From an uncultured Chitinophagaceae bacterium (GTDB lineage: Bacteria > Bacteroidota > Bacteroidia > Chitinophagales > Chitinophagaceae), in contig CALLZY010000058.1 in NCBI GenBank assembly GCA_937858715.1, positions 1 through 37,170 of the forward strand: a stretch of DNA of 37,170 bases, in the 5' to 3' direction. The notes beneath the pieces are model-generated. The model was not told where the DNA came from. It ran no database searches and saw nothing but the letters and a program-made list of their open reading frames with translations. Positions 1-36,697 of this stretch are shown here, piece by piece. How positions within the stretch are numbered: the first letter of the stretch is position 1; each line of letters opens with the position of its first letter. The translations under genes and the position numbers were made by a program.

Positions 1-200
1 GAAAAATTCTTCACAAAGTTTTTATCGCAGCCATCAGACAGGCGGGCAAAACCGCTGTTGGCCATTGGCTGACCGCAGCAGGTTTGATTGAGGGGAAACC
101 CGACAACACATCCCAGTTTTTTCAACAATTCTAATGTAGCGATGCCAACACCAGGATAAAACTGGTCAATATAACAGGGGATAAAAAGACCAACTTTCAT
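1..200 (-). CDS. lutA: LutA/YkgE-type (Fe-S)-binding oxidoreductase subunit, partial (C-terminus outside window)
   Basis: Translating the minus strand from the ATG at 198-200 gives an open frame of 66 residues that runs off the left edge of the window. It begins MKVGLFIPCYIDQFYP and contains the motif QTCCGQP at about residues 44-50. This is the start of a cysteine-rich CCG domain, as found in LutA/YkgE and in heterodisulfide reductase/glycolate oxidase Fe-S subunits. In LutABC systems this protein takes part in oxidation of L-lactate to pyruvate. It starts 6 bp after the stop of the class II aldolase gene and so belongs to the rhamnose operon. The fused aldolase/dehydrogenase upstream should yield L-lactate, so a lactate-oxidising complex here makes pathway sense. 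I expect lutB and lutC beyond the left edge. The gene symbol is by family only. Confidence 0.8.
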   Translation of the reverse strand, partial: MKVGLFIPCYIDQFYPGVGIATLELLKKLGCVVGFPLNQTCCGQPMANSGFARLSDGCDKNFVKNF

Positions 201-206
201 GTAACA

Positions 207-1505
207 CTATTTAAGAAAGGCTTTTCGCAATTCTTCGGTTTGTTCATCAGAGATAGGCACAAAACTTCCTATTGCAGACGACATTACTAAGGACCTGGCG
301 CTGAACTCAGCCACTTCCAGGTAATCGAAAGTCTGAAGCAATCCTTTCCCGGCAATCAGCACACAATCATTCTTTATAAGCAAAGCAGGCTTTTCAGGAG
401 AAATCCTTTTCGTAATCTCATCAATGTTTTTATACTGCACACCAAATTCCAACTGATGAATATCCTTCAGAAATATCCAGCTTTCGGGAATGGTACGGAC
501 ATTAATATTCACACCGGTGGAAGCAAACGACATCAGGTAAGGGGACTGGGTGAGGATGATAGTGTTTATCTCCGGGTGTTTCTTATAAATCTCCTGGTGC
601 AGGTAAACTGAACGGCTGGGAACCTTTCCCGGTTCTTTATGTCCGTCTTTTATCTGCACAATATCTTTAACCTGAAGATCCCACCTGGAGATGCCATAAG
701 GTGTAATCAAAAAATCATCGCCTTTCCACCTGGCAGATACAGTACCATAAGAACTTATCATCAGGCCATGCTGGCAGGCCCGTTTAACAATGGTGTAAAT
801 TTCATCCCTGATTTTTCTTTCATCGCTGGAATACACTACATTTTCCTGCTCGGGCATATCTGCCGGGATCATAGCATTAACCTCATCAATCAGTTCATCG
901 CTCAGTTCATTGAGGTGGCCTATCTGGCTGCCGTAAATTCCTGTTCTTGCACAAAACTCAAGGGTTTCAAACCGCTGAAAACAATCAGACAAATCTGAAC
1001 CGCCTACTACTGTTCCGTGGTTTTCCATAATCACTGAAGAATAACCTTTGTTGAACTCATCAGCAATTTCTTTACCTAATGCTTCGCTGCCGGGCAGTTC
1101 ATATTCTGCATAACCAATTTGGCCACAAACCTGTCTTGCCTGGGATACAATACTTGCTTTTGGAATCTGCCTGACAATGCTGTAAGACACAAGTGCCGGC
1201 GGATGTGCATGTATAATTGCTTTTATATCCTTTCTTGCCTGGTAAATAGCCTTATGAAAAGGAAACTCGGAAGATGGTTTATGGATACCAACAAAAGAAC
1301 CATCGGGTTTTACACAGATAATATCTTTCTCTGTCAGCGACCCCTTATCAATACCAGATGGTGTTATCCAGATATTATCATCATCATCAATGATGGAGAT
1401 ATTCCCTCCGCTTGTAGTGGTTAATCCCCTGCTGTAAATTCTTGCAATAGCAATAGTAATTTGTTTTGCCGGATGTTGCAGCAAAACGTCTAAACTCTCA
1501 TTCAT
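207..1505 (-). CDS. tandem class II aldolase/adducin-family protein, second copy degenerate
   Basis: The protein has 432 residues and looks like two class II aldolase/adducin domains in a row (about 8-215 and 230-430). The first keeps the expected features: a glycine loop SGGNIS (32-37), a PSSE segment with E80, the zinc motif HAHPP (H99, H101) and ENHG with H163. In the second copy the HxH position reads TQSP, the ENHG position reads KNDC and the SGGN loop is lost, so it probably does not bind metal. Family members cleave sugar 1-phosphates to DHAP and an aldehyde, or act as epimerases or decarboxylases. Its start overlaps the kinase stop by 4 bp (ATGA), implying translational coupling. A complete aldolase is already present in the fused gene at 4196-6316. 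The substrate here is therefore unclear: another deoxy-sugar phosphate, or a side reaction of rhamnose catabolism. Confidence 0.85.
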   Translation of the reverse strand: MNESLDVLLQHPAKQITIAIARIYSRGLTTTSGGNISIIDDDDNIWITPSGIDKGSLTEKDIICVKPDGSFVGIHKPSSEFPFHKAIYQARKDIKAIIHAHPPALVSYSIVRQIPKASIVSQARQVCGQIGYAEYELPGSEALGKEIADEFNKGYSSVIMENHGTVVGGSDLSDCFQRFETLEFCARTGIYGSQIGHLNELSDELIDEVNAMIPADMPEQENVVYSSDERKIRDEIYTIVKRACQHGLMISSYGTVSARWKGDDFLITPYGISRWDLQVKDIVQIKDGHKEPGKVPSRSVYLHQEIYKKHPEINTIILTQSPYLMSFASTGVNINVRTIPESWIFLKDIHQLEFGVQYKNIDEITKRISPEKPALLIKNDCVLIAGKGLLQTFDYLEVAEFSARSLVMSSAIGSFVPISDEQTEELRKAFLK

Positions 1506-2866
1506 GTAATTCTTTTTATGTCAACAATAGAAGATGGAAAGGCTTTACCGTTCCAATGTCTGTGCATCACCATGGCCGCACCTAACGAAGAAGCCTGTGC
1601 TACTGTTGCTGCAAACACTTCCATTTCAGGAAAAGCATCTGCCAGTAATTGCATATAGATTGGATTTTTACTGAAGCCCCCATCAACAAAAATACGTTTC
1701 ACCGCCGCACCTTTTAATACAATACTGGTACTCCTTACCTGCTGCTCCATGATGTCAGCAATTAACTGATGGTACGCCTCATCATAATTCTTATATGCAG
1801 AAAGATCTCTTTTGGAAAATCCTGATTCGCCAATCATTACTGTACTGCCTGTTGTGTGCATCGACTTGTATGCAGGCCTGAATCTCTTCAGCAATACCTC
1901 ATCAGCCTTTACCTTTTTGTAATAATCTGTATCGGTAAGAAAATGAGAGGCAAGCCTCTTTACCTGCTGTTCATGTTCATTACCGGCAAATAGCCGGGAT
2001 GCTTTTACAGGATTGCCTTTAAAAGAAAGGTAACATAAACAATCATTATGCAACTCGTAATCTGTAAGAATACTGTGATTAAAAGGATTGAGTGTTATGC
2101 ACCATGTGCCAGTGGATAGCAACACAAAAGGCTCCTGGAAAGTGGTTAAATAAGGAACTAATGCCGCTGAACTGTCATGCAGGCCAATTCCAACCGGTAT
2201 TGAGTTTTCTGTAAGTCCTGCAACTTCTGAAACTTCCTTTATGGCCGGCAGTTTATCAGCTATCTGTTCTTTCTGCACCCACTCATGATAATTCTTTTTC
2301 TGAAAATGCCAAAGGCTGGTGTGGCATCCAATGCTGGTAATATCAGTATTGGGTTTACCCGTTAAAACAAAACTCAAATATTGAGGAAGGTGCAGGGCAT
2401 ACTTCACTTTTGAAAAAAATTCTGGCTTTTCATGCTTAAGCCGGTAAAGCTGCATACCAGAATTCAGGTTTCCCAAAACCGGTGATGCAGTTTGCTTGGC
2501 AACCTGGCTTTCGCCACCATACGTTTCGTAAAACTGTTTCTGAAGTTTGAGAGAGTAAGGTTTAAGGTAATTGTACAATGGCAGCAAAACTTTTCCCTCT
2601 TCATCAAGATAAACAAAACTGGCCCCGTAACCAGAAAAGTTTACTGCCATAACCTGGAAATGATTTTCCGTAAGTATTGCCTGGAAGGAATTTTTCAACC
2701 AGTTGGTCAGAGCAGAAACATCTTCGCAGGGAAATCCATCCTCATCTTTGGTTTCCGGCAGCGACCAGCTTTCCTCATGCACTACTTTATAATCCTCATT
2801 AAAGAGCAATAACTTTTTATTAGTCTTGCCCACATCAAAGATTGCTATGACGGGAATTTTATCCAT
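1502..2866 (-). CDS. rhaB: FGGY-family sugar kinase, probable L-rhamnulokinase
   Basis: The protein has 454 residues, normal length for FGGY kinases, with two ribonuclease-H-like lobes. The N-terminal phosphate loop is IFDVGKTNKK (9-18). Later signatures are GIGLHDSSAAL (about 231), LLSTGTWC (about 248) in the ATP lobe, and VDGGFSKNP near residue 394. It would phosphorylate L-rhamnulose at O1 using ATP in the cytoplasm. That role is inferred from its place directly after a RhaI-type isomerase, whose TGA overlaps this ATG by one base (TGATG), and in the same operon as RhaT and the rhamnulose-phosphate aldolase. A related L-fuculo- or xylulokinase specificity cannot be excluded from sequence alone. 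The symbol is assigned by pathway context. Confidence 0.85.
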   Translation of the reverse strand: MDKIPVIAIFDVGKTNKKLLLFNEDYKVVHEESWSLPETKDEDGFPCEDVSALTNWLKNSFQAILTENHFQVMAVNFSGYGASFVYLDEEGKVLLPLYNYLKPYSLKLQKQFYETYGGESQVAKQTASPVLGNLNSGMQLYRLKHEKPEFFSKVKYALHLPQYLSFVLTGKPNTDITSIGCHTSLWHFQKKNYHEWVQKEQIADKLPAIKEVSEVAGLTENSIPVGIGLHDSSAALVPYLTTFQEPFVLLSTGTWCITLNPFNHSILTDYELHNDCLCYLSFKGNPVKASRLFAGNEHEQQVKRLASHFLTDTDYYKKVKADEVLLKRFRPAYKSMHTTGSTVMIGESGFSKRDLSAYKNYDEAYHQLIADIMEQQVRSTSIVLKGAAVKRIFVDGGFSKNPIYMQLLADAFPEMEVFAATVAQASSLGAAMVMHRHWNGKAFPSSIVDIKRIT

Positions 2867-4149
2867 CAGAGTCCTGTTGCAATAGTACTCGTACCTCTTT
2901 CTTTTGTCAGTTGCTCCCTCACCTTTTCTTCCCTGAAGAATTGTAACGGGTTAATAGCACCGCCGCTTCTTAATCTTGCCTCAGCTACCAGGCTTCTCAC
3001 ATCCGTATGGAAAGTATGCTTCAATATCTCCTGTGCAGCCACCACATCGTTGGCATCCTGCGCAGCGTTAAGTTTTGTCCTGTCAACCAGCAAAGCATGT
3101 GCATAGGCCATCATAATGGCTTCAACTGACTGCAGCAAATCTTCAAGCGGGTCTTTCACATTATGCGAAGCATCAATCATCCATCCCAGGTCTTTGGCAT
3201 GGTCCATGCCTCGGGCATCCATTCCTTCCACCAGTTCGCTGAAGATTAAGAATAACTGGTAAGGTTTGATGCTGCCCACAGTTAAATCGTCATCACCATA
3301 TTTACTGTCGTTAAAATGGAATCCCGCCAGCTTGCCTTCCATCAGCAGCAATGAAACAATCTGTTCAATATTTGCGTTGGGCAGATGGTGACCAAGGTCA
3401 ACTAATGTAAAGGCTTTGGGGCCTAATTTATTTGCATACAATAAAGATTGCCCCCAATCGCCAACAGTCATCGAATAGAAATTAGGCTCAAAAGCTTTGT
3501 ATTCTACAAACATTTTCCAGCTATCAGGCAACGCTGCATAAATCTCCTGAAGGCTTTCCAATGTGTTCTGGAATGCCTTGCGGAAATTCAGCTGGCCAGG
3601 AAAGCAACTGCCATCCGCCAGCCAAACGGTTAATGATTCAGAACCCAGTTCCACACCATGTTTAATCACATCAATGTTATGTTCAATGGCCTGTTTACGA
3701 ATTGCTTTATTTACATTTTGTAATGAACCGAACTTGTATGTAAGCGGCTGACCCGGCTGATCCTGGAAAGTGTTGGAGTTCACAGCATCAAATTTCAGCC
3801 CCAGTTCCGCAGCTAATTTTTTAATAGCCGTATAATCTTTTGGAATATCCCATGGGATATGCAGTGAGATGGCCCCGCTTGAACGGTTGAGTGCATGAAG
3901 CAATCCCACATCTTCCATTTTCTGCTCCAGGCTCCCCGGCTCACCAGGACCTGGGAAACGGCCAAAACGGGTTCCGCCGGTGCCCAATGCCCATGAGGGA
4001 ATAGCTACCTGAAAATCTATTAATTTTTGAATAATGGCATCCGTGTTTTCAATCTCAGTTTTTGCAAAAGCAAAACGCTGCTGATGCTGCTGTAAGTATT
4101 TATCGTTATGCGATGCGATCTGTTGTTTGTCTGGTCTCATAAAACTCAA
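2866..4149 (-). CDS. rhaI: L-rhamnose isomerase, RhaI (Pseudomonas stutzeri) type
   Basis: The protein has 427 residues and is a TIM-barrel sugar isomerase that converts L-rhamnose to L-rhamnulose in the cytoplasm. The metal ligands known from the P. stutzeri enzyme have clear counterparts with matching spacing: E216 in FVEYK, D251 and H254 in LVDLGHH, H278 in FHFND, D286/D288 in YGDDD and D326 in WMIDASH. This separates it from the E. coli RhaA family, which is built differently. The gene lies 46 bp after the fused aldolase/dehydrogenase gene and its stop overlaps the kinase start by one base. Enzymes of this type often accept other aldoses such as L-lyxose, but the operon points to rhamnose as the physiological substrate. 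Confidence 0.92.
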   Translation of the reverse strand: MSFMRPDKQQIASHNDKYLQQHQQRFAFAKTEIENTDAIIQKLIDFQVAIPSWALGTGGTRFGRFPGPGEPGSLEQKMEDVGLLHALNRSSGAISLHIPWDIPKDYTAIKKLAAELGLKFDAVNSNTFQDQPGQPLTYKFGSLQNVNKAIRKQAIEHNIDVIKHGVELGSESLTVWLADGSCFPGQLNFRKAFQNTLESLQEIYAALPDSWKMFVEYKAFEPNFYSMTVGDWGQSLLYANKLGPKAFTLVDLGHHLPNANIEQIVSLLLMEGKLAGFHFNDSKYGDDDLTVGSIKPYQLFLIFSELVEGMDARGMDHAKDLGWMIDASHNVKDPLEDLLQSVEAIMMAYAHALLVDRTKLNAAQDANDVVAAQEILKHTFHTDVRSLVAEARLRSGGAINPLQFFREEKVREQLTKERGTSTIATGL

Positions 4150-4195
4150 TTATTATCCTAAGTTAACTAATCATTCATCTTGCTGGCCTGAGATA

Positions 4196-6316
4196 CTACC
4201 TGTAAAAGCCCATTGATACCCCGCCATCCACATTCAGTGCATTGCCGGTTGACTTGCTGAGCAATCCGCCTACAAAAGCAAAACAGGCATTGGCAATATC
4301 ATCCGGAAGGATGATTTCATTAAGCAATGTTCTTTTTGCATAATAAGCAGGCAATTCATCAACAGTAATTCCATACGCTTTGGCCCGGCCATCGGCCCAG
4401 CCACCAGCCCAGATGTTAGAGTCAGCGATAACGGCATCAGGGTTTACTGTATTCACCCGTATTTTGTCGGCACCCAACTCGGCAGCCATTAAACGGGTAA
4501 GATGTGCCTGTGCAGCTTTTGCACTGCCATAGCCTGGGTTATTAGGTCCGGCCACAACGGCATTTTTAGAAACGATGTTAACAATATCTCCTCCTATGCC
4601 CTGCTTGCGCATCACTTCAATACACTTCTTCGATACCAGGAACTGGCCTTTCACCAGAATATCATACAGCTTGTCCCACTCTTCAATTGAATGGTCGGCT
4701 ATCGATTTTGAAATACTGATGCCGGCATTATTGATTACAATATCCACACCACCAAAAGCAAGTGCCGCAGCATCAACAGCGTTGTCAATACTTGCTGCAT
4801 CGGTAACATTCAGCAATGTACTGCTCACCACATCTTTTCCGAATTGCTTTGCAAATTCTTCTTTCGCTCCTTCAAGTCTTTCGGTATTAATATCATTCAG
4901 CACCACACAGGCGCCTTCTTCCGCAAACTTTTTGGCAATAGCTTTTCCAATGCCACCTGCACTGCCGGTAACTAATGCCACCCGGCCACTAAGTGGTTTT
5001 GGCTTAGGCATACGCTGCAATTTGGCTTCTTCCAGCAGCCAGTATTCAATATCAAAAGCTTCCTGACGTGGCAATGAAGTGTATTCTGACACGGCTTCTG
5101 CCCCACGCATTACATTGATGGCGTTGATATAAAACTCGCCTGCCACCCTTGCTGTTTGCTTGTCTTTGGCAAATGTGAACATACCAACCCCGGGATAAAG
5201 GATTACCACAGGATTTGCATCCCGCATTACCGGGCTGTTCGGATGCTTGCAGGTTGCATAATACTCCGCATACATTTTACGGTACGCTTCAAACTGTGGT
5301 TGCAGTTTTAGCTTAACCTCCTTCACATTGGTGATATCATCCGCAGGTGTAAGGCTTAAAACAAGCGGAGAAATTTTAGTGCGCAGAAAATGATCCGGAC
5401 AACTGGTACCTAACGGTGCCAGCCTGTCAAGGTCATTAGAATTAATAAACTGCAGCACCCTGTCATCATCAGTAAAGTGACCAATCATTTTCACATTCGA
5501 TGAACAGAAGCCCCTTAGTACCGGAGCCAACTGTGCCGCTTTCTGTAACCTCTCTTCTTTAGGTAATGACTGAATTCTCTGACCGCCGAAGATTTCTCTT
5601 TTCTTGCCATAATTATCTTCAAGATACTGGGCACAGCGTTCAATCACTTCAAGGGTATTCATATAGCTTTCATATGCCGTATCGCCCCAGGTAAATAATC
5701 CATGTGAGCCGAGCATAATACCACGAATGCCGGGGTTCTCATCAAGACATTGCTTCAGTTGCAAGCCAAGGTCAAAACCGGGGCGCTGCCAGTTAACCCA
5801 TCCGATAGTTCCGTTGAAGAGTTCCTGTGTGATTTTCTTGCCATCTTTTGCTGCCGCAATGGCAATGGCTGCATCAGGATGCAAATGGTCAATATGCTTA
5901 AACGGCAGAAAACCATGCAGCGGAGTATCAATAGACGGAGCCTTGGAAGCCAGGTCATAAATACAATGATTGAACAACTCCACCATCTCATCTTCAAACT
6001 GCAGCCCCCTGTACACATTTTTCAGGCTGCGCAGCCTGTCAACATACAAGGCAGCAAGTCCGCTGCGTTTCATCGAGCCCAAATCTCCACCACTTCCTTT
6101 AATCCACATAACTTCTGTTTCATTACCTGTAAGCGGATCTTTCGCAATCGCTTTGCAGGATGTGTTACCACCCCCGTAGTTTGTTAACCGGAGGTCGGCA
6201 CCCAGTAAGTTGGAACGATATACCAGCAGGGCTACTTCGTCACCGGCCATGGATGCGGCCTTTTCTTCGTCCCACAAATAACTTACATGTTTAAAATTGA
6301 TTGTTGCCACTGACAT
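4196..6316 (-). CDS. rhaD: bifunctional rhamnulose-1-phosphate aldolase / short-chain (L-lactaldehyde) dehydrogenase
   Basis: The protein has 706 residues in two fused parts. Residues about 20-430 are a class II aldolase, with the glycine loop GGGNTS (48-53), a histidine-rich metal site HIDHLHPDA (H141, H144, H146) and SHG with H205. Residues about 443-700 are a short-chain dehydrogenase, with nucleotide loop TGSAGGIGKA (450-459), NNAG (529-532) and catalytic Y596/K600 in YGSAK. The length and order match the RhaD aldolase-ADH fusion known from rhamnose operons (also called RhaEW). It should split L-rhamnulose 1-phosphate into DHAP and L-lactaldehyde and oxidise the latter, channelling it towards L-lactate. 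It starts 26 bp inside the end of rhaT, so translation is probably coupled. Confidence 0.93.
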   Translation of the reverse strand: MSVATINFKHVSYLWDEEKAASMAGDEVALLVYRSNLLGADLRLTNYGGGNTSCKAIAKDPLTGNETEVMWIKGSGGDLGSMKRSGLAALYVDRLRSLKNVYRGLQFEDEMVELFNHCIYDLASKAPSIDTPLHGFLPFKHIDHLHPDAAIAIAAAKDGKKITQELFNGTIGWVNWQRPGFDLGLQLKQCLDENPGIRGIMLGSHGLFTWGDTAYESYMNTLEVIERCAQYLEDNYGKKREIFGGQRIQSLPKEERLQKAAQLAPVLRGFCSSNVKMIGHFTDDDRVLQFINSNDLDRLAPLGTSCPDHFLRTKISPLVLSLTPADDITNVKEVKLKLQPQFEAYRKMYAEYYATCKHPNSPVMRDANPVVILYPGVGMFTFAKDKQTARVAGEFYINAINVMRGAEAVSEYTSLPRQEAFDIEYWLLEEAKLQRMPKPKPLSGRVALVTGSAGGIGKAIAKKFAEEGACVVLNDINTERLEGAKEEFAKQFGKDVVSSTLLNVTDAASIDNAVDAAALAFGGVDIVINNAGISISKSIADHSIEEWDKLYDILVKGQFLVSKKCIEVMRKQGIGGDIVNIVSKNAVVAGPNNPGYGSAKAAQAHLTRLMAAELGADKIRVNTVNPDAVIADSNIWAGGWADGRAKAYGITVDELPAYYAKRTLLNEIILPDDIANACFAFVGGLLSKSTGNALNVDGGVSMGFYR

Positions 6317-7433
6317 ATGTTATAGTTTTTTCGTTTTTCGATTTTTCATGAAGGCTGTTGCCACGGCCCACCAGCAAGACTGACAGGATAATGGTGGCAA
6401 TACCGATTGCAATCACCGTCTTTGTTTTTTTGCTTACACCTTTCCATTCTTTAAGTACAAGTCCCCAGATATTGGCGACAAGAATGATGAATGCCATGTG
6501 CAAAATCCATGAACTGGGGCCATTTCCTAATTTGCTCTCACCCATACCATAGAAGAAGAACTGCAAAAACCAGGTAGTACCGGCAATAGCCGAAAAAAGA
6601 TAGTTCTTGAATAACGGGGTTTCTTTATTTGTGTAGTCGCCAAATGATTTATTGCGGGCATTCAATACCATACACCAGATAAAGTTTGTTGTTAACCCAC
6701 CCCACAAAAGCACCACATAAATAACATTGTTCCTGTACAGAAATTCGCCTTCGCCGGGATTGGCAGCTTTCCATGCATCATTTGCCACAAGGGCCATTGA
6801 CTGACCAGCCTCCAGTCCGAAGTTAAAACAGGCACTAAGCACACCGGAAACAATGGATACAAACATCCCAAGGGCAAATTTATATTCTGTTTTAACGGTG
6901 GTTCCATGCGGATCTGTAGCAGCGGCAGAAAGTTGCTTCTCTTTCATCATGCCGGCCTTACCGGAAATCACAATACCTATAATACAAAGAAATAAACCGG
7001 CAAGAATGGTAAGCCCCCATTTTGAACTTACCATTTCACCAAAAGTATCTTTACCCGCCACCGGGAAGAAATCGTAATAAATAGAAGGGATTAACGCTCC
7101 AAACACCATACACAGCCCGAGGATGATACTGCTGCCCAGCGACACTCCCAGGTATCGTACACCCAGACCATAAGTAAGGCCACCGATACCCCACAGCACT
7201 CCAAAAAGAAATGTCAGGCCCAATGTTGAACCAGCAGCACCACTGATAATATCACCAAAACCAGGAATGGTAATCCACGCTGCCAGCGGCGGAACAATAA
7301 GCCAGGAAAAAAGACCACCAACAATCCAGAAACTTTCCCAGTTCCAGCCTTTTACCCGCTTATAAGGAATATAGAAGCTACCTGAAGCAAAACCACCTAA
7401 GAAGTGAAAAATAACGCCAAGAATTACATTCAT
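6291..7433 (-). CDS. rhaT: L-rhamnose/H+ symporter, RhaT family
   Basis: The protein has 380 residues and is very hydrophobic, with about ten membrane segments. The N-terminus MNVILGVIFHFLGGFASGSF, followed by YIPYKRVKGWNWESFW, is typical of RhaT transporters of the DMT superfamily. It is somewhat longer than the E. coli protein (about 344), the extra being in the middle loop (about residues 165-185) and a polar tail. It should import free L-rhamnose across the inner membrane. It is the first gene of the minus-strand rhamnose operon, and its end overlaps the next gene by 26 bp. A possible -7 element, TAGTTTTA on the minus strand (7475-7482), lies about 42 bp upstream of the ATG. Free rhamnose as the transported species fits enzymes that release monomeric rhamnose in the periplasm. 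Confidence 0.92.
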   Translation of the reverse strand: MNVILGVIFHFLGGFASGSFYIPYKRVKGWNWESFWIVGGLFSWLIVPPLAAWITIPGFGDIISGAAGSTLGLTFLFGVLWGIGGLTYGLGVRYLGVSLGSSIILGLCMVFGALIPSIYYDFFPVAGKDTFGEMVSSKWGLTILAGLFLCIIGIVISGKAGMMKEKQLSAAATDPHGTTVKTEYKFALGMFVSIVSGVLSACFNFGLEAGQSMALVANDAWKAANPGEGEFLYRNNVIYVVLLWGGLTTNFIWCMVLNARNKSFGDYTNKETPLFKNYLFSAIAGTTWFLQFFFYGMGESKLGNGPSSWILHMAFIILVANIWGLVLKEWKGVSKKTKTVIAIGIATIILSVLLVGRGNSLHEKSKNEKTITYVSGNNQF

Positions 7434-7650
7434 AAATAAAATTTCTGTTTGTCAAGCAATCTGAGAGTGTCAGGTAAAACTATGAATAACAGGAGGTATT
7501 CCGTCATGCCCCGTCATGCCTTTTTCAGCCAATAATAAAAGAAAATATATCCGAAAATATCCTTACTTTGAAACCCGGATTGCTTAAACGGGGTACACAA
7601 ACCAACTGGCACTTATTGCCGGGCTGGTGGTATGCCAAAAAGGCTGACAG
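7434..7650. promoter_or_regulatory. divergent control region between rhaT and the GntR-type regulator
   Basis: This 217-bp gap separates the only divergent gene pair in the window. It contains a perfect tandem 10-bp repeat CCGTCATGCC (7501-7510 and 7511-7520), then two near-tandem GAAAATAT(AT)CC units (7541-7552 and 7553-7562). Candidate -7 boxes are TTACTTTG (7563-7570, plus strand, towards the regulator) and TAGTTTTA (7475-7482, minus strand, towards rhaT). Neither has a convincing -33 TTTG. Repeats spaced by one helical turn between divergent promoters are what an autoregulated operator would look like, but binding is inferred. Confidence 0.5.
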
Positions 7651-8682: not shown

Positions 8683-8733
8683 TTTACCCGAATGACTGAA
8701 TATTTTCTTTAATTGAAATTGTTCCCGCTGTCA

Positions 8734-11963: not shown

Positions 11964-11967
11964 AAGT

Positions 11968-13938: not shown

Positions 13939-13963
13939 TATTGAACTGAATAAAACTTAGACG

Positions 13964-15832: not shown

Positions 15833-19015
<3,183 letters not shown>

Positions 19016-22760: not shown

Positions 22761-22771
22761 TTCAATTCATT

Positions 22772-24544: not shown

Positions 24545-24563
24545 ACCTGATTTTTTTAGTTTT

Positions 24564-27662: not shown

Positions 27663-27692
27663 CTTTATAAGTTTAATTCGTTTAAGTGAAGA

Positions 27693-29462
27693 TTACCATC
27701 CTTCATTCTGGATTAATGCCCTGTTCTTTACAGTCTCATCATATGGTATTGGCATATGATAAAGTTTGTTATCAAACAGCAGGTTGGCAACCTGTACTTT
27801 TTCATATGTATAGGTTGTACCGGTTTTGGTAATTTTTATACCATAAACCGGCCCCGACAAATCAGTGGCACCTGTTTTCCAGCGGCGTATATCCCAAAAA
27901 CGATGCTCTTCAAAAGCCAGCTCAATCCTTCTCTCGTTGCGGATAAGCTCCCGCATCTCATCCTGTGTAATGCCTGTTTTAATTCCGTACCTGTTATTTG
28001 TTCCGGCGGCAATACCAGACCGTTTTCTGATTGCTGCAATCTCGGTTACGGCATTTTCAACACGGCCGGTCTCGTTTAATGCTTCAGCATAATTCAGCAG
28101 GATTTCGGCATACCTGAAAAGCGGGAAGTTGTGGCTTTGATTTGAGTAAGAAGTCCCTGTTTGAAAATTGCCAAGGAACTTCCGCAGGTAATAACCGGTC
28201 TTTGTTTGTATAGCCACAGAAGCTGAATTGGGTTTATCCAAACCGCCTTCAAATGTTTCCACTGCACGGCCAAGCCATTTCAGTGAATCATTATTACAGA
28301 AAACAGAAAAGTTCAGCCTTAAATCTCTTCCTTTATAAGGATCAGCAGGGTTGTATCCTGAAGCGGTGTTTACAGTTCCGTCCGGGTTGAAAGGCTGTAA
28401 TCCGTTACGCATTGGAAATGCGTCCACAAAAGCCTGTGTGGGACTTGTGTAACCCTGGCTGGTAGCTGTTCCTGCAAAACCAACTGGTGCCTGAGAATTT
28501 TCAAGGCCGGTGTTGTTAGCGCTTTGCTTCGCAAGAATGATTTCCTCGTTCTTCTTATTCAGGAAAACGGCAGCAAAATAAGTAGGCGAACCCGCTGTAA
28601 GCAGTTTATAATAAGGCAGCGTTTTGAATTCTTCTGCTGCAGTAATTACAGCCTGCCAGCGGTTAGGGTCTGCTGCCGGATAACCAGCCAACGCTTTCTT
28701 TACCGGGTCAGTTTCTAAACCACCACCATTATACAATGGGCTTGCTGCATATAACAACACCCTGCACTTAAGGGCAATAGCTGCCCCTCTTGGTATTCTG
28801 CCCCAGTCTGCATCCGCTATTGTCTCTTTACGCAGACTGTCCTTAACAATATCACATTCACTGACTATATAACTAACTGTTTCGGCAAACGTATTCCTGG
28901 GTATTTGCAGGTTATCATCCAGCGTAAATATTTTATCTCCTATTAACGGAACGCCACCATATCTTTTCAATAATTCAAAATACAGGTAGCAACGGATAAA
29001 CCTTGCTTCAGCCCTCCAGTATTGCCTCGTAAGCTTGGCAGCTGTACTGTCAGAAGTCTGAACAATAGGAACCCTGCCGATATTCTGCATAAAAATATTC
29101 GTCCTGCGGATGCCATAATAGCTGTTGGCCCAATAAGGGTCAGGATTGCTTACAACACTGATGCGCCTGTTTGTATAGTATTCAACAAGTGTGTTGTTAC
29201 GGCTGGGAATAGCATCGCCACTGGCCGCATCCAGAAAATCGCCGCCAATGCGGTTATACCCGGAGGGCAGGTAATTATACAAATCATTCAGGTTAAATGC
29301 TGCCACAGTGCCTAAGCGGTCAAGTGTATCAAACACCAGGTCTGCACCAAACCAGTCTTTAGGTTCGGTTTCCAGTTTCTTACACGAACTGGTTGATACT
29401 ATTGTGAGCATCAATAAGCTGCCCGCAACAGTTCCAAAAAAAAGTTTCAATTTATTATTCAT
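27693..29462 (-). CDS. susD: SusD/RagB-family outer-membrane glycan-binding lipoprotein (susD1)
   Basis: I set the start at the ATG 29460-29462 (MNNKLKLFFG), giving 589 residues and a lipoprotein signal ending at C27 (TSSC). A longer frame upstream to 29606 overlaps susC1 and is not believable. SusD hallmarks are RFIRCYLYFELLKRYGGVP, LKCRVLLYAASPLYNGG, LFRYAEILLNYAEALNE and RRIELAFEEHRFWDIRRWK, with the last residues IQNEGW. It lies 10 bp after the susC1 stop. Like susD2 it should form the surface lid of a SusCD importer. Two non-identical SusCD pairs suggest uptake of two fragment types, or of two linkages of the same glycan. Confidence 0.95.
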   Translation of the reverse strand: MNNKLKLFFGTVAGSLLMLTIVSTSSCKKLETEPKDWFGADLVFDTLDRLGTVAAFNLNDLYNYLPSGYNRIGGDFLDAASGDAIPSRNNTLVEYYTNRRISVVSNPDPYWANSYYGIRRTNIFMQNIGRVPIVQTSDSTAAKLTRQYWRAEARFIRCYLYFELLKRYGGVPLIGDKIFTLDDNLQIPRNTFAETVSYIVSECDIVKDSLRKETIADADWGRIPRGAAIALKCRVLLYAASPLYNGGGLETDPVKKALAGYPAADPNRWQAVITAAEEFKTLPYYKLLTAGSPTYFAAVFLNKKNEEIILAKQSANNTGLENSQAPVGFAGTATSQGYTSPTQAFVDAFPMRNGLQPFNPDGTVNTASGYNPADPYKGRDLRLNFSVFCNNDSLKWLGRAVETFEGGLDKPNSASVAIQTKTGYYLRKFLGNFQTGTSYSNQSHNFPLFRYAEILLNYAEALNETGRVENAVTEIAAIRKRSGIAAGTNNRYGIKTGITQDEMRELIRNERRIELAFEEHRFWDIRRWKTGATDLSGPVYGIKITKTGTTYTYEKVQVANLLFDNKLYHMPIPYDETVKNRALIQNEGW

Positions 29463-29472
29463 ATAGCGGGTT

Positions 29473-32250
29473 TTAGAGTTTAATTGTAATGCCGAAATTG
29501 AATAAACGCTGCATGGGGTAGCTGAAACCGCTGATGATTTCAGGATCCCTGTCATCAAGTTCTTTCGAAGAAAGAGTGAGCAGATTGTATCCTCTTGCAA
29601 ACACACGGATATTTTGCAGCTTAATATAATTCAGTAACCGTTGCGGAATGCTGTACCCGATTTCGACCTGCTTCAACCTTACATAGTCGCCATTGCGAAG
29701 CCAGTAAGTTGACTGAACCTGGTTATTACTGTTCACTCCGATATTCAACCGGGGATAAGTAGCCGATGCGGCAGTGGAAGGTGTCCACCTGTTCAGGTTA
29801 TTTTCATAAGCCTGGCCAAATCCGCCATTCTGGAATGCCCAGATACTTGAACCACCCACATAAACATCCCTGTTGGTAACGCCTTGTATCAATGCACTGA
29901 AATCAAATCCTTTAAACTCAACACCGGCTGTAAAACCAAAGAACACAAGTGGTTTCCCTACCCTTCCGATTGGCGTAACATCAAACTGGTCAATAACGCC
30001 GTCCTTATTAAGGTCGCTGTATTTAATATCGCCGGGCTGCGGTGTATAACCAACGGTAGTGGCACTGTTGCTGATTTCAGCGGCTGACTGAAATAATCCT
30101 TCCGCTACATAACCAAACATCTGCCCCACAGGCTGTCCTGTTCTCTTCATCCAGTCGTATGGACGATACACCTCATCATTAAACAGCACTTTGGTTTTTA
30201 AAAGACTGGCATTGAGCGAAGCAAAATACTGAAGTCCGTTTTGGGTTTTCTGGTTCCAGCCCAGGGTTACATCCAATCCGCTGTACCTGTTCTTACCAAT
30301 GTTTTCACGGGGATAATCATTTCCAATAAGACTGGTGCTTAAACCTCTTATCTGCAGCAAATCATAGTATTTATTGGTAAAATATTCCAGCGAAACATTC
30401 AACCGGTCGTTTAACAATCCCGCATTAAATCCGGCATTTATTTTCAACGCTTTTTCAAAATCCATGTCAGGATTTGTCAATGGCTGCTCGGTAATAGCTG
30501 TTTGCGAACCGGCTGATGTGCCAAAGTAAACACTGCTGGCATCAAAGAACCGCTGGTAGTAGGAGAAATAACCGGGGTCATCCCATCCTGTTTTACCAAC
30601 AGAGCCAAATACCTTTAAGTGACTGATTACTTTTTGTTTTTGCATGAAGCTTTCTTTTTCAGCATTCCATGCTAAACCAACTGCGGGGAAAAAGCCTCTT
30701 TTGAAATCGCCTTTCGGCGGATAACGGTTTGAACCGTTGTAACCAAAAGCGGCCTCTGCCACATACTTTTCTTTATAGTTATAAGCAACCCTGCCTGAAA
30801 CACCGCTGATGGTATATGGAAGTTCGCTGCCGCTTACAGAGTTGTCACGGTTAGCAAGCAGCAGTGCATTTATGCCATGTTTGTTTTTAATGGTTTTGTC
30901 ATAACCGGCAGAAATTTCAACATAGTTGCTCCTTCCCTGGTAGTCGATGCCGTTGCCATTCGCCTGTGTGCCATCCGTTCCATATTTATTATAGGTAACC
31001 GGAGTGGTTGATGTTACCATCTGGTAAACAGCAAATGTTTTGTTCCGTATGTTGTTTTCTGAAAGTGTGGCGTTAAAGGCTGTTTTCACCTGAACCCACA
31101 AGCCAGGGGTGATGCCATCTAATTTTTGTTTCAGGTAGAAATTGGCCAGCATATCCCTTTTATAGTTCAGCCGGTAACCGCTTGAAATAGCCTGCGCCAT
31201 TATATTGTTCTGGAAAAGATTGGTTCCCCCATAAGAGCCGTTATCGTTATAAACAGGGTAAGCATTATTGGGTGTGTTTACAAGGGCAGACAGAATAGAA
31301 CTGGTTGTGCTGCCGGGTTCGCTTCCGTTCAATATCCTTCCCAGCAAATAAATGCCACCGGTCAGGTTTTGGTTTACACTAATGTCCACATTGCTGCGGA
31401 TAACATACGTTTTGAAATCGTTGTTGGTATTGTAAGTATTCTTATCAGAAGTTACAAGAAAACCTTTTTGGTTAACATGCTCAAGCGATACATAGTACCG
31501 GGCAAACTTATTGCCACCTGAGGCATTCAGAGAATACCTGTCGAACCGTGAACTTGGTTTTATCACCTGGTCTCTCCAGTTAATATCCGGGTGGCCAAAA
31601 GGATCGGTGCCGTTTTTATAGGCGTCCAGGTCGGCCTGTGAATACTTTGCAGGCAATCCATCATTTATTAAAGCCTCATTATATAAAGTGGCATAATTGT
31701 ATGAGCCAAGCACTTTTGGTGTGCCCAGCGATTTTTGAAAAGCCGTTTGTGCAGTAAAGGATATAGAGTGCTTTTCGATTTTACCCTTTCTGGTAGTAAT
31801 CACAAGGGCACCATTGCTGCCCCTTACGCCCAGCATGGCTGTGCTCAGGGCATCTTTCTGTACCGTAACACTTTCAATATCCTCCAGGTTAAAAATAGAA
31901 AGGTTGGCAACCACACCGTCAATAATCACAACCGGGTCAAAACCATGAAGTGAAACCGAAGCCCCGTCTGCTCCCGGCTGACCAGATCCCTGGGTGGCAT
32001 ACAATCCGGCCAGCCTGCCGGTAAGGGCACTTTTGGCGCTTGTAACAGGCGCCCTTAATATATCTTTTGAATAAACAGCACCTGTTGATGCCGCTGTAAG
32101 ATGTGATGGGGCCGGTGTGTAAATCAACTGAGACTGTGGTTTCTTCAGGTCCACCGTATCAGCTGGCTTTGTTTGCTGGGCTATTATTCCTGTGTAAAAA
32201 ATGCCAAGGCATAATAACACAAAAAGGGCCCTTTTAAAGAACCTTGTCAT
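29473..32250 (-). CDS. susC: SusC/RagA-family TonB-dependent transporter lacking the usual N-terminal domain (susC1)
   Basis: From the ATG at 32248-32250 (MTRFFKRALFVLLCLG) the protein has 925 residues and a standard signal peptide (IIA/QQ). An upstream in-frame ATG at 32367 would add 39 residues without a signal sequence of its own. Only about 35 residues lie between the signal and the plug. The carboxypeptidase-regulatory-like domain seen in susC2 is therefore missing. The plug keeps ALTGRLAGLYATQGSGQPGA, VVIIDGV and KDALSTAMLGVRGSNGALVI, and the barrel ends RLFNFGITIKL. It is the first PUL gene, downstream of the regulator gene and its triple CCCC motifs, and pairs with susD1. Confidence 0.92.
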   Translation of the reverse strand: MTRFFKRALFVLLCLGIFYTGIIAQQTKPADTVDLKKPQSQLIYTPAPSHLTAASTGAVYSKDILRAPVTSAKSALTGRLAGLYATQGSGQPGADGASVSLHGFDPVVIIDGVVANLSIFNLEDIESVTVQKDALSTAMLGVRGSNGALVITTRKGKIEKHSISFTAQTAFQKSLGTPKVLGSYNYATLYNEALINDGLPAKYSQADLDAYKNGTDPFGHPDINWRDQVIKPSSRFDRYSLNASGGNKFARYYVSLEHVNQKGFLVTSDKNTYNTNNDFKTYVIRSNVDISVNQNLTGGIYLLGRILNGSEPGSTTSSILSALVNTPNNAYPVYNDNGSYGGTNLFQNNIMAQAISSGYRLNYKRDMLANFYLKQKLDGITPGLWVQVKTAFNATLSENNIRNKTFAVYQMVTSTTPVTYNKYGTDGTQANGNGIDYQGRSNYVEISAGYDKTIKNKHGINALLLANRDNSVSGSELPYTISGVSGRVAYNYKEKYVAEAAFGYNGSNRYPPKGDFKRGFFPAVGLAWNAEKESFMQKQKVISHLKVFGSVGKTGWDDPGYFSYYQRFFDASSVYFGTSAGSQTAITEQPLTNPDMDFEKALKINAGFNAGLLNDRLNVSLEYFTNKYYDLLQIRGLSTSLIGNDYPRENIGKNRYSGLDVTLGWNQKTQNGLQYFASLNASLLKTKVLFNDEVYRPYDWMKRTGQPVGQMFGYVAEGLFQSAAEISNSATTVGYTPQPGDIKYSDLNKDGVIDQFDVTPIGRVGKPLVFFGFTAGVEFKGFDFSALIQGVTNRDVYVGGSSIWAFQNGGFGQAYENNLNRWTPSTAASATYPRLNIGVNSNNQVQSTYWLRNGDYVRLKQVEIGYSIPQRLLNYIKLQNIRVFARGYNLLTLSSKELDDRDPEIISGFSYPMQRLFNFGITIKL

Positions 32251-32367
32251 AAAAGTGTGGTGTTTAATCTTGTGAAAAATAGAAGAGAGTCCGTTTTTTG
32301 CTTCGGCTGCTCTTAATCCTCCGCCAGGATTGGGGAGTTGCAAAAGTTTTGGAGTCAGTTTTCTCAT

Positions 32368-32554: not shown

Positions 32555-32580
32555 CCTTTTTCTGTACAGGCAGAAAAAGG
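32555..32580 (-). terminator. hairpin immediately after the hybrid two-component regulator gene
   Basis: A perfect 10-bp inverted repeat (CCTTTTTCTG at 32555-32564 and CAGAAAAAGG at 32571-32580) with a 6-base loop lies one base after the stop codon of the regulator gene. There is no long U tract after the stem, so it is terminator-like rather than a textbook intrinsic terminator. It would separate the regulator transcript from the PUL operon. Confidence 0.55.
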
Positions 32581-32581
32581 C

Positions 32582-35500
32582 TTACTCTTTCTTATCCCCG
32601 ACAACCTTTTCATTAAGTTTATAGTTCTTTCCCAGTGTTTTCCGGTACTTCTCGATATACTCGGAAGGCTTAATGCCGAAGGTTTTTGTGAACTGCTCCC
32701 TGAAATACTTAATGTCCTTTATTCCCACATAAAATGCCGTTTCGCTGATATTATAATCGGTATTAATAAACAGCTCGGCAGCCTTTCTGAGCCGCAGAAA
32801 ACGTATAAAGGCATTGGCACTTTGCCCGGAAATGGTCTTGATTTTTTTGTAAAGTTTACTGTGGCTCATGCCCATCTCTTTGGCAAAAACCTGGATATTA
32901 AAGTCATCACGGTCAAAATGACGCTCTACCACGGCGATACAATCTTCTAAAAACTGCTTGTATTCTTCCGAAACGTTCAGGGTGTTTTTCTGATGGGTGA
33001 TTTCGTTATAAAAATACTTCTGCAGGCTCTGTTGCTTGCGGATGAGGCTTTTGACCCTTGCCACCAGCATATCTTTTTCAAAGGGTTTGGTAATGTAATC
33101 ATCGGCCCCGTATTCAATACCCTTCAGTTTTGATTCTGTTGAAAAACTTCCGGTTATTAATATAAATGGTATATGGTTCAGCGTAGGCGATTCTTTTACT
33201 TCTTTGCAAAACTCAATTCCTGACACAGGCTCCATCACAACATCGCTGATAATTATATCCGGCATCAGGGTTTTGGCCATTTTCAGCCCTTCAAGACCGT
33301 CTCCTGCCTCATATACAATAAACTCTTTCAGAAATACCTGTGCCAGGTATCCCCGCATCTGCTGATTGTCATCTGTAATAAGGATTGACTGTTTTTCGCT
33401 TACAATAGATTCAAGCCCGTCAGTAAGTGTACCGGCAGTTTCCGCCACCAGTTCGTTTCCAGCGCCAATTTCATCAAGCAGGTCGCCGGGAGTGCTGTCT
33501 GCATTTTCATTTTCAACGGTATCAAAATGCTGCCTTCCTTTTTTCAGCACCACAAAGAAACTCGTCCCCTCGCCCGGCTTACTCTCATAATACACCTTCC
33601 CATTATGCTCTTCAACCATCTTCTTAACCAAATACAAGCCAATTCCAAATCCCGGCTTCAGCGGTACATCTTTTTCATTTACCTGGTAAAACTTATCAAA
33701 TATCTTATCGCCTGAGCCAGGAGGTATGCCCTGCCCGCTGTCTGTTACTTCGCCAAGGATTGTATCAGCCGTTTCAGTTATTTTCACTGTCACCTTTCCA
33801 CCCTTTGGTGTGTATTTTAAAGCATTGGAAAAAAGGTTATAGAAAACCGTCCCCAGCTTTTCTTTGTCAGCATACACTTCTATGTCATGATTTTCGCAAT
33901 CGAAAGTATATTCAATTCCTTTTGATTTTGCCTGCTGTGCAAAATACAGGTATGTATCATGGCATAGCTGGTAAAAATTCAGCTTTGAAATATGCAGTTC
34001 ACCTGTTTCACTTTCTGTTTTGCGGAACAGCAGCAGTTGGTCCACCAGGCTCATCAGCCGCCGGGCATTCCGGTAAACTAAGTTCAGTTCTTCTTTTTCC
34101 GGCTGCTCATTTTCTTTATGCAGCAGGTCTTTTACCGGATTAATGATAAGGGTAAGAGGTGTACGAAACTCATGGGTGATGTTTGTAAAAAACGACTGCC
34201 GCTTCTCATTGATTTCTTTCTCCTTTTCTGCATTCAGTTCCGTCAGCTTTACTTTGTACTTCAGCTTCGTCTGTTGTGTTTTGTACCTGTAATAGGCATA
34301 CAGCAATGAAACACCCAGCGTAAAATACAGCAGGTAGGCCCACCATGTGCGGTACCACGGGGGAAGTATTGTTATCTTCAGCACCAGCTCCTTTGTATTC
34401 CATTCGCCTTTACTGTTGGTGTTCTTTATGCGTAACGTATATGTTCCTTCCCGCACATTGTTATAACTGATGTTCCGGAAATTGCCGGAGTAGTTCCAGT
34501 CCTTATCCCATCCCTGTAAATAATAAGCGTATGAGATTTTGTCCGGAGATGTATATTCCAATGCAGAGAATTTGAAAGAAAGAAACGACTGGTCATAAGG
34601 AATCCGCAGGGCCGTCACACTGCCATCTTCTGTACTTAAGACATCTTTGGCAAACTGAAACACCGGTTTGTTATTAATGAGTATGTCTGTTAAATAAACC
34701 GGTGGCATATAATTACGTACTGAAATCCGGTGAGGATAAAACAGGTTAAACCCGTTAATACCTCCAAAAACCATCTGCCCCGATTTTAAGGCCAAAGCTG
34801 CCCTGTAAGAAAACTGGTTGCTCTGCAATCCATCACTCTGATAAAAGTTAGAAAATTCTTCTTTCTTCGGGTCAAACCGGGATAACCCGTTCAATGTGCT
34901 AAGCCAGAGGCACCCGGTTGAATCTTCGAGAATATTCAGTACAGCATTATTACACAAACCATTCATTTCAGAATACCGCCCGGCAACGGCCCATTTATCA
35001 ATATCAAAACGTATTAAGCCTCCTCCTTCAGTACCTAACCAAAGGTTGTGTCTTTTATCTTCATAGATGCTTCGTACCGGTTTGCCAATCTCGAAGTACT
35101 TACCACCATGCAGCAGTGTTTTATCTACCTGCAGCAACTGTGTGGATGTACCGGCCCACAAATTGCCCCGGCTGTCTTCAAACATTGCCATCAGCGTATT
35201 GTACTCCTGGCTGAAAACCTGGAACCTGTTTGCTTCCCGGTTAAACTTGTACAGCTTACCTCCATAAGTGGATGCCCACAGGTTCTTCATCCTGTCTTCA
35301 AGCAGCCACCACACCACTTTGTTTTCTGTTTTAGCAGAATCGTTAATACAGGCATAATGCTCAAATGTTCCGCTGGCCTTATTAAACCGGTTGATGCCGC
35401 CGCCAAATGTTGCAATCCAGGTATTACCATAAGAGTCCAGCTTGATATTGGCAACTGAGTTATGACTAAGTGAACTTGCCACTCCGTTTATGTGCTTATA

Positions 35501-36697
35501 ATTCCGGAATGTATTGGTCTTGCGGTTCCATACGCTGAGCCCTTCGCCGTCAGTACCAATCAGCAGGTCGCCATCCCTGTCTTCACAAAAAGAATAAATA
35601 AAATTGCCGGGCAGTGAGTTCTCTGTAAACGGAATACGGGAAATTGTCTGAAACCTGTTCTTCTCTTCATCCACCACATTACAGCCACCCCGCAATGTAC
35701 CAATCCATATTCTAGATTCCCTGTCTGAAATAATTGAGTTCACACATTCACTCGACAGGTTATACTTACCCTCACCTGATGAAATATAACTGAAGGTTTT
35801 GCTTTGCGGGTCAAAAATGGAGACTCCTGCCCTCTCCGTTCCTATCCACACCCTCCCCTGCTTATCTAAGCATAAGCTGTTTATTAATGCAGCGCTTAGT
35901 TTTCCGGGAGTCTCGCCATACGATTCTGTTACTTTTCGGGCGGATAATGAATATTTAAACAGACCATCCTCTGCACCAATCCAGAAAGAACCTTTATTAT
36001 CTGCCTGGAAAATATTACCCCTTTTTACTTCCCCGTTTACAATTTCTATACGGTTGGTTTTTACATCATACAGCCCAAGTCCTCTGTCTCGCAGCAGCAG
36101 CCACACTTTACTGTTATAAATACAAACAGACCTGACACTATACCCGGTAACCCTTTGGCCATTTTCTGTCAAAGGCACCGGCCTGGCATACTTTTCACCT
36201 GCTTTAATAACCAGCAGGCCCAGCTCATCAGTGCCAAGAAATACATTGCCTTCATCATCTGAGTTTATGGTTTGTACGCCAAACTGCATTCTTTGTGGCC
36301 TGTCTCCCTGGTAAGGATAATACAACTCCGTCGAAAAACTGTTGGTAACACTGTTGTACATCGTCAACGCCTGACCGGTAGCCACCCACAGCCTGTTGAA
36401 CTTATCTTCATGAATAGTATTGATATAATTGTGGGGAAGCGATGCGGAGTCAGTTAGTTTATTGGTAAAAATTTTAAACTCATTACCATCATACCTGTTC
36501 AGGCCATAATGCGTACCAAACCAGATAAACCCTTTTCTGTCCTGGTATACACACCTCACCGAATTATTGGACAGGCCATTGGCAATACTTAACCGTATCA
36601 AAGGAGGATATTCTCCGGCTGCTGCATATAGGCCGGAGAAAAGGAAAATTAAAAAAGGAATTACCTTAATTCTGATATACCGCCACATCAAAAACAC
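32582..36697 (-). CDS. hybrid two-component system regulator (HTCS) with AraC output domain
   Basis: The protein has 1371 residues. A signal/membrane segment (about 6-26) is followed by repeated periplasmic propeller blades (about 30-670, motifs such as DRKGFIWFGTHYGLNRYDG). A Y_Y_Y domain (about 695-775) and a membrane helix (about 783-805) come next. A HisKA domain with H842 in THEFRTPL, an HATPase with NLFSNALKYTP and GFGIGLYLV, a receiver with D1152 in ISDVVMEP, and an AraC helix-turn-helix (about 1260-1350) complete it. Such proteins sense oligosaccharides directly in the periplasm and activate the adjacent susC promoter. It is encoded just upstream of the PUL in the same direction. An alternative start is MWRYIRIK, three codons in. 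A weak -7-like TTATTTTA lies at 36733-36740. Confidence 0.96.
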   Translation of the reverse strand: MFLMWRYIRIKVIPFLIFLFSGLYAAAGEYPPLIRLSIANGLSNNSVRCVYQDRKGFIWFGTHYGLNRYDGNEFKIFTNKLTDSASLPHNYINTIHEDKFNRLWVATGQALTMYNSVTNSFSTELYYPYQGDRPQRMQFGVQTINSDDEGNVFLGTDELGLLVIKAGEKYARPVPLTENGQRVTGYSVRSVCIYNSKVWLLLRDRGLGLYDVKTNRIEIVNGEVKRGNIFQADNKGSFWIGAEDGLFKYSLSARKVTESYGETPGKLSAALINSLCLDKQGRVWIGTERAGVSIFDPQSKTFSYISSGEGKYNLSSECVNSIISDRESRIWIGTLRGGCNVVDEEKNRFQTISRIPFTENSLPGNFIYSFCEDRDGDLLIGTDGEGLSVWNRKTNTFRNYKHINGVASSLSHNSVANIKLDSYGNTWIATFGGGINRFNKASGTFEHYACINDSAKTENKVVWWLLEDRMKNLWASTYGGKLYKFNREANRFQVFSQEYNTLMAMFEDSRGNLWAGTSTQLLQVDKTLLHGGKYFEIGKPVRSIYEDKRHNLWLGTEGGGLIRFDIDKWAVAGRYSEMNGLCNNAVLNILEDSTGCLWLSTLNGLSRFDPKKEEFSNFYQSDGLQSNQFSYRAALALKSGQMVFGGINGFNLFYPHRISVRNYMPPVYLTDILINNKPVFQFAKDVLSTEDGSVTALRIPYDQSFLSFKFSALEYTSPDKISYAYYLQGWDKDWNYSGNFRNISYNNVREGTYTLRIKNTNSKGEWNTKELVLKITILPPWYRTWWAYLLYFTLGVSLLYAYYRYKTQQTKLKYKVKLTELNAEKEKEINEKRQSFFTNITHEFRTPLTLIINPVKDLLHKENEQPEKEELNLVYRNARRLMSLVDQLLLFRKTESETGELHISKLNFYQLCHDTYLYFAQQAKSKGIEYTFDCENHDIEVYADKEKLGTVFYNLFSNALKYTPKGGKVTVKITETADTILGEVTDSGQGIPPGSGDKIFDKFYQVNEKDVPLKPGFGIGLYLVKKMVEEHNGKVYYESKPGEGTSFFVVLKKGRQHFDTVENENADSTPGDLLDEIGAGNELVAETAGTLTDGLESIVSEKQSILITDDNQQMRGYLAQVFLKEFIVYEAGDGLEGLKMAKTLMPDIIISDVVMEPVSGIEFCKEVKESPTLNHIPFILITGSFSTESKLKGIEYGADDYITKPFEKDMLVARVKSLIRKQQSLQKYFYNEITHQKNTLNVSEEYKQFLEDCIAVVERHFDRDDFNIQVFAKEMGMSHSKLYKKIKTISGQSANAFIRFLRLRKAAELFINTDYNISETAFYVGIKDIKYFREQFTKTFGIKPSEYIEKYRKTLGKNYKLNEKVVGDKKE

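Follow-up and report, generated by a model that had tools for sequence, protein, structure and literature searches.

A probable type II arabinogalactan utilization locus with predicted eliminative uronate chemistry, adjacent to a rhamnose catabolism module, in an uncultured Chitinophagaceae bacterium

The 37,170 bases analyzed here (hereafter, the window) are the entire contig CALLZY010000058.1 (C58) from a draft genome of an uncultured Chitinophagaceae bacterium (GCA_937858715.1; G000; 4.42 Mb in 282 contigs, 98.95% complete, 3.76% estimated contamination), and carry a polysaccharide utilization locus (PUL) next to a rhamnose operon (Table 1). We consider it probable that the PUL targets type II arabinogalactan (arabinogalactan protein, AGP), that its uronate chemistry is eliminative throughout, and that a general rhamnose module is docked beside it. 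Gene content, active-site residues, synteny and co-occurrence were read from the sequences themselves. Of the 27 open reading frames (ORFs) of at least 120 aa, 20 were scanned with Pfam and NCBIfam, and the results bore out the gene list of an original prediction made for this contig; outside these scans were six plus-strand ORFs that overlap annotated genes and a single ORF left open at the right edge of the contig.

The propeller protein of the PUL belongs to polysaccharide lyase family PL42 by PF15892 (318 bits), and its match to PDB entry 5muk reaches 488 bits (470–488 bits for 5muk, 5mum, 4irt and 5mvh). Aligned with 5muk, the protein has H97, Y150 and R339 at the anterior positions His90, Tyr143 and Arg333 of BT3686, which completes the lyase triad, and N55 in place of the posterior hydrolase residue His48 expected of a GH145 rhamnosidase. 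BT3686 mutants of these anterior residues are reported to be inactive on wine AGP, and natural Bacteroides enzymes that lack the posterior His to be lyases with activity on red-wine AGP and none on gum arabic (PMC8406133); the GH145 family has since been reassigned to PL42, and the fungal enzyme FoRham1 acts on gum arabic via the anterior site (PMC8377490). The window enzyme thus has the BNR_4 propeller and anterior His/Tyr/Arg in common with BT3686 and FoRham1, with Asn at position 48.

Across 396 genomes of the order, 28 carry the PL42 family (29 proteins); four weak proteins (<190 bits; anterior Arg not seen) were set aside, which left 25 strong ones, the window included. The anterior triad is kept in all 25. 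The posterior His is present in 4 of them (Y, F, N, S, L, R, D or V in the others), compared with about 70% of published homologs, in which the substitutes are Gln, Asp, Phe, Tyr or Ser (PMC8377490), and in two of nine named PL42 loci. Two of three congeners have Gln there and the third is truncated at this point. With 21 of the 25 strong proteins lacking the posterior His, the survey suggests that most PL42 enzymes of these Chitinophagales are pure lyases. In the PL42 tree the window groups with its congeners (support 95/85), and the best-matching named locus, L006 from a Chitinophagaceae metagenome-assembled genome, pairs with G177, a member of the window's own family (100/100).

Because the anterior triad is kept and the posterior His is replaced by Asn, rhamnose (Rha) is likely released by elimination of a cap in which it is linked to glucuronic acid (GlcA), as the original prediction had proposed in place of hydrolysis. 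Fusions of PL42 to GH105 lend further support: BNR_4 and GH88/105 domains occur in single ORFs of G369, G242 and L010 (fusion coordinates L093 9317-11788, L097 9364-11769 and L010 11230-13590), and the L010 fusion is a second BNR_4-GH88 gene beside PL42. That the propeller is instead a retaining alpha-L-rhamnosidase, a GH145 hydrolase freeing rhamnose by hydrolysis, is highly improbable; the sole NCBIfam model that it matches is named for the alpha-L-rhamnosidase BT3686, but the catalytic posterior His of that enzyme is missing here, and GH145 enzymes without it are reported to lack rhamnosidase activity on gum arabic AGP (PMC8406133, PMC8377490). Propellers fused to a GH2 domain (L091 7538-10705) and to a region matching Peptidase_M14 (L012 7403-11293) were also seen.

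Two further genes of the PUL bear on the fate of the uronate. The GH105 protein falls in the GH88/105 family (PF07470, 291 bits); its WWWVDGLYM at residue 166 aligns with WWWADGLYM of 5noa, and we take the conserved Asp of this region to be catalytic. In an alignment of the DUF2264 protein with a fragment of BcGDH, Tyr258, Arg312 and Tyr316 fall at the three proposed catalytic positions (given an offset of 5 between chain and paper numbering, inferred from residue spacing), and the same Tyr/Arg/Tyr set is kept in nine of nine other aligned homologs. BcGDH is a glucuronate dehydratase that makes the unsaturated substrate for GH88, and BT3677, the founding GH154/DUF2264 member, also has dehydratase activity (PMC12269599). 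The DUF2264 protein of the window probably dehydrates saturated GlcA for GH105, rather than acting as a hydrolysing glucuronidase. The proposal that GH105 and DUF2264 clear unsaturated and saturated GlcA, respectively, can therefore be refined, with DUF2264 as a probable dehydratase feeding GH105. Around the other 24 strong PL42 genes, in neighborhood stretches of up to 20 kb, a GH105 homolog of at least 60 bits was found at ten loci and a DUF2264 homolog at seven. A KduI-family gene for the next step lies outside the window, on contig C174, beside genes for a short-chain dehydrogenase/reductase and a glucuronate isomerase.

Taken together, these genes would form the following route, in which substrate, reaction products, localization and transcription are predicted. 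The hybrid two-component sensor/regulator (HTCS) would sense the glycan and the SusCD proteins would import it. At its anterior face, PL42 would split Rha-alpha-1,4-GlcA by beta-elimination, so that the terminal rhamnose is released and an unsaturated GlcA stays behind; where terminal GlcA is uncapped, DUF2264 would dehydrate it and so yield this unsaturated sugar as well, and the single GH105 would clear the unsaturated GlcA arising from both. GH16, GH2, GH43 and GH51 would open the galactan and remove galactose and arabinofuranose. Rhamnose would be converted by the products of the gntR/rhaT-rhaEW-rhaI-rhaB-aldolase-lutA operon to dihydroxyacetone phosphate and lactate, and lactate to pyruvate via LutABC.

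Homology and synteny support the assignment as an arabinogalactan-type PUL, in line with the original prediction. The congeners G027 and G004 have PL42-GH105-galK-GH2-GH16-DUF2264 in the same order as the window, without GH51 and GH43; G027 additionally has an HTCS and a distant SusCD pair, and the PL42 gene of G004 is cut by a contig end. Both SusCD pairs (56–78% identity) occur with PL42, GH2 and GH16 in G260, G204, G369 and G081, where GH105 is separate in the first two, fused in G369 and undetected in G081. In Neptunitalea (L011), GH43 (65%) and GH51 (48%) homologs lie near PL42. The closest relatives of SusC/SusD (74–78%) and GH16 (72–77%) are in another genus, g40; in the GH2 tree the window falls weakly with its congeners, together with G177 (86/89), and the trees of GH105 and GH16 do not resolve this node. 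That the entire PUL was acquired recently by horizontal transfer is a possible reading that we did not adopt, as PL42 groups with the congeners (95/85) and GH2 weakly so.

A different rhamnose- and uronate-containing glycan, such as rhamnogalacturonan I (RG-I), is an improbable target. GH105, GH43 and GH51 occur in pectin PULs too, and the rhamnose module of the congeners adjoins RG-I PULs, both of which count in favor of RG-I. Against it, no PL11, PL9, GH28 or GH78 model was matched among the scanned ORFs of the window (Pfam), and in G027, which has both systems, PL42, GH105, GH2, GH16 and DUF2264 form a block of their own on a contig other than that of the RG-I PUL. The claim that sulfatases, PL9/PL11, GH28, GH78 and GH106 are lacking thus stands for the 20 scanned ORFs of the window and fails for PL11 and GH78 genome-wide, with two PL11-model matches and five GH78 catalytic-model matches on other contigs.

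Several points weigh against an AGP locus with purely eliminative uronate removal. The propeller scores 604.4 bits against NF052497, the NCBIfam equivalog model of BT3686, below its cut-off of 700; none of the 396 genomes passes this cut-off and the control, Bacteroides ihuae, does, so that it apparently singles out close equivalogs of BT3686 and not PL42 as a whole. The exact cap recognized is uncertain, because Bacteroides enzymes without the posterior His are inactive on gum arabic, and for the same reason the gum arabic assay suggested in the original prediction could mislead. Among the other 24 strong PL42 loci, five have only a weak GH88 neighbor (22–38 bits, one below the Pfam cut-off) and GH105 was undetected in the fetched stretch of nine; the congener G018 has no GH105 or DUF2264 match in 60 kb around PL42. 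The DUF2264 match to BcGDH is distant (9o4u, 63 bits), and two members of this family were initially reported as hydrolases. Finally, the GH43 protein best matches 5c0p, labelled an endo-arabinase, and no GH43_24 exo-beta-1,3-galactanase was identified among the window's genes.

The rhamnose operon was recognized by RhaEW, which exceeds its curated cut-off, together with RhaI, a kinase and RhaT; the kinase and RhaI score below their equivalog cut-offs. Within 58 relatives, RhaEW exceeded the cut-off in six, among them the window's own genome, the congeners G018, G027 and G012, and G032, where the match is only partial and at a contig edge. The three congeners (G012 split over two contigs) share the order gntR/rhaT-rhaEW-rhaI-rhaB followed by lutA, lutB and lutC, all three of the latter being complete in G027 (Pfam) and in G018 and G012 (homology). 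The window retains only 66 codons of lutA, and lutB and lutC were seen in the relatives alone. The route to pyruvate that had been proposed for this contig therefore lies partly in the window, with lutA truncated and the KduI-family gene on another contig. The rhaI, rhaEW, rhaT and gntR products are 83–89% identical to those of the congeners, the lutA piece 80–83% and rhaB 59–65%. This lower value raised the possibility that rhaB had been replaced by a foreign kinase, but the rhaB genes of the congeners also differ from one another (65–82%), and we rejected it.

Between rhaB and lutA lies a tandem class II aldolase gene that was absent from the original account. It sits beside RhaEW, which already holds an aldolase. 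It is lacking from the rhamnose module of all three congeners and present at the same position in G555 and G177, of another genus; of 244 genomes of the family, 10 carry it, counting that of the window. Its domain 1 keeps the SSE/HAH/NHG motifs, which domain 2 has lost, both in the window and in nine of nine aligned homologs.

That the junction between the rhamnose operon and the PUL is an assembly or binning artefact is very unlikely. The assembly is a 282-contig draft with some estimated contamination, and the adjacency occurs in no other genome checked. However, GC content stays at 41–45% across the window, and both halves fit the genus, by the identities of the rha and lutA genes given above and by the grouping of PL42 with the congeners. 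The adjacency is real on this contig; it is no proof of a dedicated circuit.

To place this adjacency in context, PL42 and RhaEW were profiled jointly in the 396 genomes. RhaEW is present in 28 of 28 PL42-positive genomes (E up to 1e-150), compared with 130 of 396 overall (Fisher p 3e-15, in a test that ignores phylogeny and genome size and includes the four weak-PL42 genomes), and in 24 of 24 once the weak ones are removed. G004 (83% complete) has PL42 and no RhaEW over the cut-off, which counts against a strict co-occurrence rule. The 23 other strong-PL42 genomes have the two genes either on the same contig at least 90 kb apart (n = 10) or on different contigs, some of them short (n = 13); adjacency was seen in no other genome checked, although a link across split contigs is not strictly excluded. 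They are also on different contigs in G027 and G018 of the relatives set. Rhamnose release and catabolism thus co-occur in the genome and are usually not adjacent.

In the three congeners, the other side of gntR is occupied by an RG-I-type PUL. All three have PL11 and two GDSL esterases there; G027 and G018, where the contigs extend far enough, also have GH28, SusCD, GH2, GH43 and GH97 (Pfam for G027, homology elsewhere). In G555, PL11, GDSL and an RG-I-type SusD lie within about 7 kb of gntR. RG-I PUL genes of the window's own genome (L152, L153) were found where C251 ends and where C151 starts, and no gntR was found in the 17 kb seen of C251. This PUL is apparently split across the two contigs within a PL11 gene.

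Regulatory sequences common to the two operons were sought in the window. Two tandem copies of CCGTCATGC lie in the rhaT/gntR gap (7501-7520); they are partly kept in the congeners and possibly form an operator. The 20-mer at 7501 is found nowhere else in the window, the PUL included. A second sequence, AAGCAATC, has six copies compared with two expected (6 reached in 2 of 100 shuffles), two of which lie in the rhaT/gntR gap; the stretch upstream of susC2 (32300-32620) has none. A scan of 7300-9950 for sigma-70-type promoters gave chance levels. No operator common to the rhamnose operon and the PUL was found, which is weak negative evidence.

Given these patterns, we regard as unlikely a dedicated design in which the AGP PUL and the rhamnose operon were selected to stay together and are co-regulated. 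The two are adjacent and mostly on the same strand, and RhaEW accompanies PL42 in all 28 genomes; however, the genes are distant or on different contigs in the 23 other genomes, G018, G027 and G012 carry the module beside an RG-I PUL, the rhaT/gntR direct repeat is single in the window, and PL11 and GH78 matches exist elsewhere in the same genome. The coupling of the two operons put forward in the original prediction is not supported: among the genomes checked, adjacency is seen here only, the rha-lut modules of the congeners abut an RG-I PUL, and a shared operator was not found. A general rhamnose module seems to have become docked here in a lineage-specific way.

Table 1 Features of the window, with coordinates and the main basis of each assignment.
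Feature	Coordinates	Strand	Basis
lutA-like gene, first 66 codons, cut by contig end	3..200	-	PF02754 match at G000:C58:6-194; 80-83% identity to congener lutA
Tandem class II aldolase; domain 1 with metal-site motifs, domain 2 without	207..1505	-	Same operon position in G555, G177
FGGY kinase, probable rhamnulokinase (RhaB)	1502..2866	-	Operon position as in congeners, 59-65% identity
L-rhamnose isomerase RhaI	2866..4149	-	TIGR02629 479.5 bits, below cut-off 646.75; 86-88% to congeners
RhaEW, rhamnulose-1-P aldolase / lactaldehyde dehydrogenase	4196..6316	-	TIGR02632 967 bits, cut-off 567.75
RhaT rhamnose/proton symporter	6291..7433	-	PF06379; NF010024 520 bits, cut-off 468
Divergent rhaT/gntR intergenic region	7434..7650	.	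Direct repeat CCGTCATGC within 7501-7520
GntR-type DNA-binding and periplasmic-binding-protein-like domain; probable rhamnose regulator	7651..8682	+	83-85% to congeners, same operon edge
galT	8734..9780	-	Pfam/NCBIfam scans
DUF2264, probable beta-D-glucuronate dehydratase (former GH154)	9924..11963	-	PF10022 277 bits; 9o4u 63 bits; Y258/R312/Y316 = BcGDH Y229/R285/Y289
GH51 alpha-L-arabinofuranosidase	11968..13938	-	Pfam scan and sequence match
GH43	13964..14968	-	Pfam; 65% to GH43 near PL42 in Neptunitalea L011
GH16, predicted as a probable endo-acting galactanase; possible lipoprotein	14974..15822	-	
GH2 LacZ-type beta-galactosidase; true start probably downstream	15833..19006	-	NF052611 1000.7 bits, cut-off 999
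galK	19080..20270	-	TIGR00131 over cut-off
GH105/GH88-type unsaturated glucuronyl hydrolase	20261..21442	-	PF07470 291 bits; 5noa ('Family 88 glycosyl hydrolase') 552 bits
PL42 (former GH145), predicted Rha-GlcA lyase, BNR_4 propeller	21444..22760	-	N55 at posterior His48; H97/Y150/R339 kept
SusD 1	22772..24544	-	Pfam
SusC 1	24564..27662	-	TIGR04056
SusD 2; probably begins downstream of the listed start, which overlaps susC2	27693..29606	-	Pfam
SusC 2	29473..32367	-	TIGR04056
HTCS hybrid two-component sensor/regulator	32582..36697	-	Pfam
105-nt direct repeat, two copies, contig end; outside the pathway	36854..37170	.	

The 105-nt repeat at the right end is probably the reason for the contig break. 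The genome has related copies of it on contigs C247, C51 and C42.

Each eliminative step is already published for Bacteroides. The AGP PULs of this genus (the B. thetaiotaomicron BT3686 locus and B. plebeius PUL5), compared here by their published descriptions, likewise combine GH145/PL42 and GH105 in a SusCD-type PUL; the window differs in that no GH43_24 was identified, the posterior His is Asn and a rhamnose operon is adjacent. BT3677 presumably lies in the same B. thetaiotaomicron locus as BT3686. The window DUF2264 protein (679 aa) is close in length to the BT3677 construct 30-673 (PMC12269599); it has the Tyr/Arg/Tyr set in common with BcGDH and differs in length from that enzyme (about 400 aa).

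As for the rhamnose operon, lldEFG is of the same kind as lutABC. RhaEW in Bacteroidetes has already been named, and some Actinomycetales and Rhodobacterales have RhaEW regulons in which lldD or lldEFG carries the pathway on to pyruvate (PMC3870299). Compared with the regulons described there, the operon of the window has a GntR-type regulator, a tandem aldolase (as in some genera) and docking beside an AGP PUL. Literature titles, looked at together with text of PMC5061871 and PMC3878776, named no Chitinophaga AGP locus of this kind and no PL42-GH105 fusion, which is no proof of absence.

For the biology of this family, we tentatively propose that gntR-rha-lut is docked as one block next to rhamnose-releasing PULs of differing type (RG-I in three congeners and G555, AGP here), such that catabolic operons are recombined with depolymerization loci, and that terminal Rha-GlcA and GlcA may be removed only by elimination onto one GH105, with neither a rhamnosidase nor a glucuronidase being needed. 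The locus would offer a testable case, outside gut Bacteroides, of uronate removal by elimination alone, in which a lyase and a dehydratase feed one GH105. Fused PL42-GH105 enzymes could serve as tools for trimming AGP caps, and the variety of neighbors around the rha-lut module is relevant to the way in which bacteria rewire their sugar catabolism to the digestion of glycans.

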